A DNA stretch of 64,000 nt from Actinomycetota bacterium (GTDB lineage: Bacteria > Actinomycetota > CADDZG01 > JAHWKV01), in contig JAUJPC010000006.1 of assembly GCA_030447305.1 (NCBI GenBank), forward strand, positions 1-64,000, given 5' to 3'. Below are positions 52,779 through 62,455 of this stretch, piece by piece; within the stretch, counting starts at the first letter, position 1, and every line of letters begins with the position of its first letter. Position numbers and translations under genes: made by a program. A model generated the notes under the pieces. That model did not search any database, had not been told where the DNA came from, and worked only from the letters and a program-made list of their open reading frames with translations.

Positions 52779-53921
52779 GGGGTGCCAGAACTCGGTTTTG
52801 CTGCTCAATCACGGCGCCCGATAGCATCGCAGCCCATGTTCCTATCCATCCTGTACTTGCTGCTCCGAACTCCTTCGGCTGCTCCCCCACCGCAATCAGA
52901 ACTCCATCGACCTCGAGATCGTCGTCTTGCGTCACCAGCTGAAGATCCTGCGCCGCCAGGTCGCTCGGCCAGATCTGCGGCCAACTGACCGTCTCTTTCT
53001 GGCCGCGCTCAGCCGGATCCTGCCCAGGCAACGCTGGGGCAGCTTCATGGTTACCCCCGCACACCCTGCTCCGCTGGCACCTCCACCTGGTCAAGCGCAA
53101 GTGGAGATATAAGAAGGAAAGCAAGCCTGGAAGGCAGCCACTGCCCCCTGAAACGGTTGCACTGATCGTGCGCTTGGCCAGGGAGAATCCCCGCTGGGGT
53201 ACCTAAGGATCCAAGGTGAGCTGCAAAAGGTAGGAGTGAGGGTCGGCGCCACCTCGATCCGCAGGGTTATTCAGGCCCATGGGATCGGGCCGGCCCCCCG
53301 AAGGAGCGGACCGAGCTGGTCTCAGTTCCTGCGAGCCCAAGCCCATGGCACCTTGGCCTGCGACTTCTTCACCGTCGAGACGGTTCGGCTGAAGACCTTG
53401 TACATCCTTTTCTTTTATCGAGCTGGCCACCAGGCGGGTTCACCTGGGCGGCGTGACTGCCCACCCCGGTTCGGCGTGGGTCACTCAGCAGGCGAGGAAC
53501 CGATCAATCGACGCTCCTGCCGCTTCTGCGCCGCCGAGGTTTTGATCCACGACCGGGACAGCAAGTTCTGGGGTGGGTTCAACCAGGTCTTTGAAGCCCA
53601 GGGCACCAGGATCATAAGGACGCCGGTCCGGGCGCCGAACGCCAACGCCTTCGCCGAGCGGTGGGTGCTTACCGCAAGAAGCGAGTGCCTGGATTGGATT
53701 CTGATTAGCGGCAGGCGCCACCTGGAGCGGGTGCTTCGCACCTACATTCGCCATTACAACCAGGAGCGGCCTCACCGAAGCCTCGAATTGGAGACGCCGG
53801 AACGACTTCAAATGCCGGAGCCTGAACAACCGGTCCGCCTACAGCGCCACGACATCTTTGGCGGTCTGATCCATGAGTACCGACGAGCGGCGTGAGGATG
53901 AGATATGAGTTTTGGCACCCC
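52779..53921 (+). mobile_element. IS copy 1, integrase-core transposase (frame broken)
   Basis: Ends are GGGGTGCCAGAACT (52779-52792) and AGTTTTGGCACCCC (53908-53921), 13 of 14 bases inverted. The coding parts read [77 protein letters not shown] with the first catalytic Asp, [20 protein letters not shown] with the second, and NANAFAERWVLTARSECLDW with the Glu. The rve fold is IS3/IS481-like, about 340 residues, but several single-base indels break the frame. A near-identical copy lies inverted at 61316-62455. Confidence 0.85.
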
Positions 53922-54010
53922 ACGCCCCTTCCGGGCGCGAAGCGACGCTGCGTCTTACGCTTGGCGCCGTCGGCAGGACGGCGAGTACGGCATGGCAGAC
54001 GGCCGAGAGG

Positions 54011-54038
54011 TTGCCCTTCGAACGTGTTCCCGTACCAT
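54011..54038 (+). promoter_or_regulatory. Putative promoter of the hsd operon
   Basis: TTGCCC (54011-54016) and TACCAT (54033-54038) with a 16-base spacer precede the AGGA ribosome site (54047-54050) and TTG start of hsdR. The match to consensus is moderate. It lies within the 140 bp between the IS end and the gene. Confidence 0.4.
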
Positions 54039-59514: not shown

Positions 59515-61315
59515 CGCTCGGACCGTTCGACATCACTGCCGAGCGCATCCAGGCACCAGGCCAGAGTTTCACACCGTTCGGGAATCGCCTGTTAGTCGTA
59601 CAAGTCAGTGCATCTCGCGTCCACGGGCACCAGCTCGCCATCAACTCGAACGAGACGACACCCGACGGCGGTGTCGACGCTGCCCTTCGAAACGGCGTGG
59701 GCACCGATTTCATGCCACCGGCGACTCGGCATGGCAATTCAAGCGCACCGGCATCGGGGTCACAAGCCTGCGCTGCTGAGTTCGAGAACGCGGCCTGGGC
59801 ACACGAGTTTATCCGCTCCGGCGGTGCCTACATCATGGTCATTGGGACGCCATATCCAGACAACCTCATCGAGGCACGCCGTCGAAAGATCGCCGAGAAG
59901 GCAGTTGAGTTGGACCTGCTTGCAGGCGACGACCCTGACCGCATCCGCGTATACGACGCGAACCGGCTAGCTCGGTGGGCGTCCCGATTTCCAGCGGTCG
60001 CCGTGAGCCAGCTCTCTGGCGGGCAAGGACTCGTCGCCGTCGACTTCGACAGTGGTCGAGCGGCTTTACCTACACGACATCCTGGGTGCCTGACAATGAA
60101 CGCAACGCGGCCGCCGAATCCATCCGGGCGCAGGTGGCGTCGCAGGGTCAAGCTGAGGTCCGAATCCAAGGCGACATCCGGCATCGGAAAGACCAGGCTC
60201 GTCATGGAGGCGCTCCGAACGCCGGAGTTGCAGCCACTTGTGGCATACGTCGCGGATGCCAATGCCGTGAGCGGAGAGCTGCTGACCCACCTTGTCAGCG
60301 AGGGCCGCACCGCCGTGCTGGTCGTCGATGAGTGTCCTGTGAGCGGCACATCAAGCTTGTCGAGCAGTTGCCGGCCGACCCGACGATCAAGCTCATCACG
60401 ATCGGAGACCTCGGAGCCGCCCTCTCACGCGGACCGGTTATCGGGGTCCAAGCAATCGACTCTGATGCCGCCGATGAGTTTCTCAAGATCAACTTCTCGA
60501 CTTTGTCGCCAGAAGCTCGCCGATTCGTCGCCGATCACAGCCAAGGCAACCCTCGTTGGATGATTGCGCTAGCCGGGAAGGTTGCCGGGGCATCGGATGC
60601 GCAGGCGGCGGACCTCATCGCCTTAAACGACATCGAACAGTTCATCGCAACGCTGTTGCCGGAGGGGCGGGGTTTTTTTGCGCGGCGGCACTGGCGCTCC
60701 TTGAGCGAGTGGGCTGGGGCGGCGACCTGCGTTATCAGGTCGACCTGTTGGTCTCATTCGCCGGAGTCACGATGGAAGAGATGGAGACCGCTGCGTCCGA
60801 CCTTTCGCGGCGGGGTCTTCTCAACCGCACCGGCCGGTACCGCGCAGTCTCTCCGCATCCACTCGCCGTCTACCTCGCCGCCGAGGCATGGCGCGAACTC
60901 GCCGAGCGGGTGGTCGATGAGTTCATACCGCAGCTCGACGAAGACATGGCTCTGGCCTTCTTCCGCCGAATCGCCGACCTCGGATGCTTCCAACCCGCCC
61001 GATCCGTACTCCCTCGACTGTTGTCATCGGGCGGCCCATTTAGCTCGCTCTCCGACCTGGAAACGAGCGGGCTTGGCCGTGTCCTGACGCAGCTGGCGAA
61101 TTGTGACGCCCGAAGAGGTCGCGTTGCATCTTCGCGAACTCATTGAGCAGGTCGATCCAGAGACGCTCGCCTCACAACGCAACAGTCGACGGGATCTCGT
61201 CTGGACGCTGGAGAAGCTGGCGTGGCACAGCAGGACGTTCGAAACCCCGGCCGACAGTCTCCTCAAACTCGCGGTTGCCGAGAACGAGACATACGCGAAC
61301 AACGCCACGGGGCGT
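59511..61315 (+). pseudogene. Nuclease-STAND NTPase gene (Avs-like), frameshifted and truncated
   Basis: ATG 59511 overlaps the hsdS stop. Joined across about four indels, the product begins with an Mrr-like PD-(D/E)xK region (LLVVQVSASRVHGHQLAINS, TTPDGGVDAALRN, then WQFKR in another frame). A P-loop follows (SGIGKTRLVMEALRTP), then AVLVVDEC as Walker B, IGDLGAALSRGPVIGVQAID, SDLSRRGLLNRTGRYRAVSP with a winged-helix look, and helical repeats. The order matches antiviral STAND (Avs-type) proteins, whose nuclease is triggered by phage proteins. The frame runs into IS copy 2 (NETYANNATG then IS sequence), so the C-terminal sensor is lost. Confidence 0.6.
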
Positions 61316-62455
61316 GGGGTGCCAAAACTGAGATCGCATCGTCACGCCGCTCTTCGATACTCGTGAATCAGGCCGCCAAGGATGTCGTGGCGCTCTAGGC
61401 GGACCGGTTGGTCAGGCGCCGAAGAAAGAGCTGAAAGTCGTTCCGGCGTCTCCAATTCAAGGCTTCGGTGAGGCCGCTCCTGATTAATGGCGAATGTAGG
61501 TCTGAAGGACCTGATACAGGTGTCGCCGGCCGGGAACCAGGATCCAGTCTAGGCATTCGCTTTTAACGGTAAGCACCCACCGCTCGGCGAAGGCGTTAGC
61601 GTTCGGCGCCCCCACCGGGGTTCTTAAGATTCTGGTGCCCTGGGCTTCAAAGACCTGGTTGAACCCACCCCAGAACTTGCTGTCCCGGTCGTGGATCAAA
61701 ACCTCGGCGGCGCAGAAGCGGCAGGAGCGTCGATTGATCGGTTCCTCGCCTGCTGAGTGACCCACGCCGAACCGGGGTGGGCAGTCACGCCGCCCAGGTG
61801 AACCCGCCTGGTGGCCAGCTCGATAAAAGAAAAGGATGTACAAGGTCTTCAGCCGAACCGTCTCGACGGTGAAGAAGTCGCAGGCCAAGGTGCCATGGGC
61901 TTGGGCTCGCAGGAACTGAGACCAGCTCGGTCCGCTCCTTCGGGGGGCCGGCCCGATCCCATGGGCCTGAATAACCCTGCGGATCGAGGTGGCGCCGACC
62001 CTCACTCCTACCTTTTGCAGCTCACCTTGGATCCTTAGGTACCCCAGCGGGGATTCTCCTGGCCAAGCGCACGATCAGTGCAACCGTTTCAGGGGGCAGT
62101 GGCCGCCTTCCAGGCTTGCTTTCCTTCTTATATCTCCACTTGCGCTTGACCAGGTGGAGGTGCCAGCGGAGCAGGGTGTGCGGGGTAACCATGAAGCTGC
62201 CCCAGCGTTGCCTGGGCAGGATCCGGCTGAGCGCGGCCAGAAAGAGACGGTCAGTTGGCCGCAGATCTGGCCGAGCGACCTGGCGGCGCAGGATCTTCAG
62301 CTGGTGACGCAAGACGACGATCTCGAGGTCGATGGAGTTCTGATTGCGGTGGGGGAGCAGCCGAAGGAGTTCGGAGCAGCAAGTACAGGATCGATAGGAA
62401 CATGGGCTGCGATGCTATTGGAGCGTGATTGAGCCGCAAAACCGGGTTTTGTACC
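61316..62455 (-). mobile_element. IS copy 2, inverted relative to copy 1
   Basis: The left end GGGGTGCCAAAACT (61316-61329) matches copy 1; the right end is altered (GGTACAAAACCCGG on the complementary strand). The coding parts match copy 1 almost base for base ([58 protein letters not shown]). It shares copy 1's indels in homopolymer runs but lacks an extra C found only in copy 1. It cuts off the STAND gene on one side and the membrane-protein gene on the other. Confidence 0.85.

Follow-up and report, generated by a model that had tools for sequence, protein, structure and literature searches.

The locus and its genes

The window, the whole stretch of 64,000 nucleotides analysed here, carries a type I restriction-modification (R-M) operon and the remnant of a fourth gene between two inverted copies of an IS481-like element. 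The following features make up this part of the window:

50767..52470, + strand: second defence-like unit, to the left of both IS copies (a GmrSD_N/DUF262 protein and a 204-aa possible HEPN protein)
52779..53921, + strand: left IS481-like copy, terminal inverted repeats recognisable at both ends (GGGGTGCCAGAACTC ... GAGTTTTGGCACCCC), transposase frame broken
52823..53608, + strand: low-divergence tract of the left copy, a candidate gene-conversion tract
54061..56739, + strand: hsdR, 892 aa, intact (EAK, TGTGKT, DECH, EcoEI_R_C domain)
56739..58166, + strand: hsdM, 475 aa, intact (DPACGTGGF, NPPFG)
58156..59514, + strand: hsdS, two target-recognition domains (listed ORF start 58021, likely start near 58156)
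59511..61312, + strand: decayed PD-Lambda-4_A-like gene, 5' half only, with several frameshifts, terminating at the right IS copy
61309..62451, - strand: right IS481-like copy with a good inner and a degenerate outer terminus, broken transposase frame
62457..63331, - strand: truncated membrane-protein gene, its end IPT/TIG-like by eye, running into the right IS copy at the outer end of the latter

The identities of hsdR, hsdM and hsdS are backed by Pfam and PADLOC, and all three genes of a type I R-M system are present with their catalytic motifs. In its R-M-S gene order, motifs and domains the operon resembles type I systems with an EcoEI/EcoAI-type HsdR, from which it differs in nothing of kind. 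The operon is intact and, judging from the motifs, probably active: HsdM and HsdS would methylate the host DNA, and HsdR would cut unmodified invaders. The nearest relatives of HsdR that were found are 54-57% identical and occur in MAGs from other phyla. Among 100 genomes of relatives of the host, the operon is absent from this locus, and only a 74%-identical hsdM end was detected, in genome G062. Two hsdRMS loci from MAGs labelled Woesearchaeota and Leptospiraceae (L044 and L045) share 99.7% identity over 11.4 kb, which reflects either misbinning or very recent transfer.

The fourth gene matches PD-Lambda-4_A in PADLOC. An earlier, sequence-only reading of this DNA had called it a STAND gene. 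It is a frameshifted 5' half and not complete. Its last readable part aligns to residues 594-635 of an intact relative in G239 (1351 aa), and since the alignment ends at about residue 635, about 700 residues are missing. With a decayed 5' half in place of an intact A gene, the locus does not qualify as a PD-Lambda-4 system. The missing half was not found elsewhere in the genome in a weak search that used a distant relative as the query, and it could be present in a form too diverged to detect. Plasmid relatives of the gene were not found either. Membership in the operon was considered and rejected: in the HsdR-relative loci that extend past hsdS (L045, L046 and L048), no PD-Lambda-4_A-like gene follows hsdS. 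Thus, the fourth gene merely adjoins the operon and is no regular member of it.

As the sequence-only reading had recognised, the fourth gene is cut by one IS end, and at least the right copy therefore arrived after this gene. The right copy actually sits between genes truncated on either side, the PD-Lambda-4_A-like gene at its inner end and the membrane-protein gene at its outer end. The truncation of the latter was judged by eye, with no homologue for comparison; the gene has no match in Pfam and no homologue in the class. Farther right, positions 63608-64000 resemble a transposase end by eye, and the final ~120 bp of the window are found again in many genomes from this phylum. In the defence-like unit that precedes the left IS copy, the GmrSD_N/DUF262 protein received the PADLOC labels NsnA and PD-T4-2_A, and the possible HEPN protein is named from a match below the cut-off.

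Mosaic divergence of the IS copies

The two arms of the ~1.14-kb element (52818-53928 and 61309-62421) align in inverted orientation across almost their full length, with 94% identity in BLAST, far above chance. An open-frame relative in the same genome, which has an rve_3 core, best matches IS481 (NF033577, E 2e-30). IS481 is the top-scoring family, but the match of 106 bits lies below the NCBI cut-off of 224, and the element is therefore named IS481-like only. Further copies within this genome (C1:103070, C1:100605 and C6:284773) set the element ends near YGTGGGGTGCCAAAAC and GTTTTGGCACCCCACR. These ends approach YGTGGGGTGCC...GGCACCCCACR, a resemblance to the IS481 family. The element belongs to a divergent IS481/IS3-like group, and both of its copies in the window are dead. 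In each copy the matches to the transposase of the open-frame relative are split over two to three reading frames, which is why both frames are regarded as broken. The earlier claim that the IS ends are readable holds for three of the four, which are well preserved; the outer end of the right copy is degenerate and reads GGTACAAAACCC, where other copies have approximately GGGTGCCAAAACTC. No plasmid copies of the element were found.

The sequence-only reading had also described the copies as near-identical. The inverted pair around the operon is real, but near-identity is confined to its middle. Of 71 differing columns over the aligned element, only four fall within the central 785 columns, compared with 67 in the 371 end columns. 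This clustering is far from random, with a log-likelihood ratio of 66.5 versus at most 8.4 across 100 permutations. In the middle, the copies are 99.7% identical to each other and equally distant from an outgroup copy (79% identity each). Their mutual identity falls to only 86% in the last 325 bp, and the divergence of the IS ends amounts to 14-24%.

The clustered identity points either to gene conversion between the two inverted copies at a later stage or to a mistake in the assembly. An error of assembly or polishing in this apparently metagenome-derived genome, which would have made the middles of evenly diverged copies look alike, is unlikely. It would fit the MAG-like state of the genome, which is in 7 contigs, and the small indels in homopolymer runs that distinguish the copies or are common to both. 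However, the three intact hsd genes suggest a low base error rate, and polishing rarely erases a divergence of ~15-20% over 785 bases. The simplest biological reading of the mosaic is gene conversion well after both copies had inserted.

Composite transposition and inversion

An operon bracketed by inverted copies of the same IS has the outline of a composite transposon, and the sequence-only reading had proposed this form, in which the IS pair jointly moved the R-M operon to its present site. R-M complexes between IS repeats, both direct and inverted, have been described, and IS-linked movement of R-M genes was shown in E. coli (PMC3031569). The window shares with these complexes the R-M genes between IS copies, but differs from them in that one copy truncates both of its neighbours and the pair has no target duplication. 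Specifically, no target duplication was found at the outer ends, where the flanks share no stretch longer than 3 bp. Two IS copies do bracket the cargo, but the right outer terminus is degenerate, the transposases are broken and the ends have diverged from each other to the extent given above. Moreover, the two outer flanks are mutually unrelated, with an unlike, truncated gene on the right, and the right copy lies inside the fourth gene, so that the segment lacks a clean cassette boundary there. A composite transposon was therefore rejected, given the state of the ends and of the transposase frames, the genes on either side and the lack of a target duplication, and joint transposition of the operon by the pair appears highly improbable. 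In principle, another IS copy, intact but unseen, could act on the ends in trans. Missing target duplications are a usual sign of inter-IS recombination, adjacent deletion or decay (PMC11708052). The left copy alone is framed by a possible 4-bp duplication (CCCC), as a single insertion would give, although a match of this length may be due to chance in G+C-rich sequence.

The second proposal concerned an IS-bounded segment (53.9-61.3 kb) that is turned back and forth when the host recombines the inverted copies. As inverted homologous repeats the copies have the length that recombination needs, their ~785 almost identical columns being ample for the RecA-dependent pathway, and the conversion-like mosaic suggests that they have paired in the past. 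If the copies pair, homologous recombination could invert the 7.4-kb stretch that they enclose. That the segment is a switch of this kind is nevertheless quite unlikely. No alternative orientation was seen, the locus being absent from all 100 relatives compared, and nothing left of the left copy resembles the lost half of the fourth gene, which an earlier inversion would have placed there. There is also no sign of a switched promoter: no sigma-70-like site was found in 52700-54100, in a scan that is weak and uninformative for the host organism. One candidate for an inversion-derived duplication, 5 bp (CCCCG) common to the left outer and the right inner flank, was not counted, for it is C-rich and the other junction has no partner. 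A more far-reaching idea, that the dead IS copies serve as recombining inverted repeats, homogenise each other continually and from time to time flip the R-M operon within a conjugative island, altering its promoter linkage, is very unlikely.

The island at tRNA-Val

The wider surroundings of the operon belong to an island of ~98 kb that spans about 18.7-116.7 kb of the contig, from a tRNA-Val gene to a duplicate of its 3' end. The window covers the left half only, with these features:

18653..18727, + strand: tRNA-Val(GAC), marking the left island boundary, 3' end repeated at 116711-116771 of contig C1
21402..22592, - strand: tyrosine recombinase (integrase), 396 aa, adjoining the tRNA boundary
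27110..30469, + strand: VirB4-like conjugal transfer ATPase, related to CD1110 and also matching PrgI
37598..39733, + strand: TraG/VirD4-like coupling protein
39771..40652, + strand: Replic_Relax relaxase-type protein

Synteny with genomes of the same genus extends to tRNA-Val and then ends. The repeated stretch with the tRNA 3' end is 61 bp long (one mismatch in its first 45 bases) and has no further copy on the 124 kb examined. In a genome of the same genus (G001, contig C84) the left flank joins the right flank directly and thus represents the empty site. The matches of the coupling protein and the VirB4-like ATPase lie below the NCBIfam cut-offs, and the Pfam cut-offs were reached for TraG-D_C, P-loop_TraG, PrgI and Replic_Relax. 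The island thus resembles ICEs inserted at tRNA genes in its tRNA-Val target with the duplicated 3' end, the adjoining tyrosine integrase, the relaxase, coupling protein and VirB4-like ATPase, and the empty site in a relative. It differs from such ICEs in that several of its genes look frameshifted. The conjugation genes could stem from an older element.

A second tyrosine recombinase is encoded inside the island (31411-32718 of the window) and a shortened third one at L076:15154-15984, hinting at nested or tandem elements. Past 64 kb the G+C content drops from ~0.65 to ~0.57. Further defence-like cargo includes an ATPase related to OLD/Gabija/AriA-type defence proteins (L076:17950-20000). Relatives of the bracketing IS also occur at several further places inside the island.

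The island is the likely vehicle of the operon and accounts for its arrival better than a composite transposon. Taking all observations together, we consider it probable that the operon segment is cargo of this tyrosine-recombinase island, an ICE or the remnant of one, and that the IS copies inserted separately, decayed, exchanged DNA and do not now move the operon. A tyrosine recombinase would have integrated the island at tRNA-Val, and the R-M operon would have arrived with it. The two IS481-like copies may have inserted independently, the left one between the DUF262 unit and hsdR and the right one in the PD-Lambda-4_A-like gene, and the partner flank of the right copy may later have been lost by deletion or rearrangement. 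The transposases would then have decayed, gene conversion between the copies may have homogenised their middles, and the pair would no longer move the operon by its own transposition.

Nothing at this locus is new in kind, as R-M complexes between IS repeats, the inverted case included, are already known; the mosaic divergence of the IS copies is the one new detail. An IS pair around a defence operon is easily mistaken for a composite transposon. In the wider view, the tRNA-borne island is the likely vehicle and the IS copies are later damage, and their clustered identity offers a minor but testable example of gene conversion acting on an inverted IS pair.
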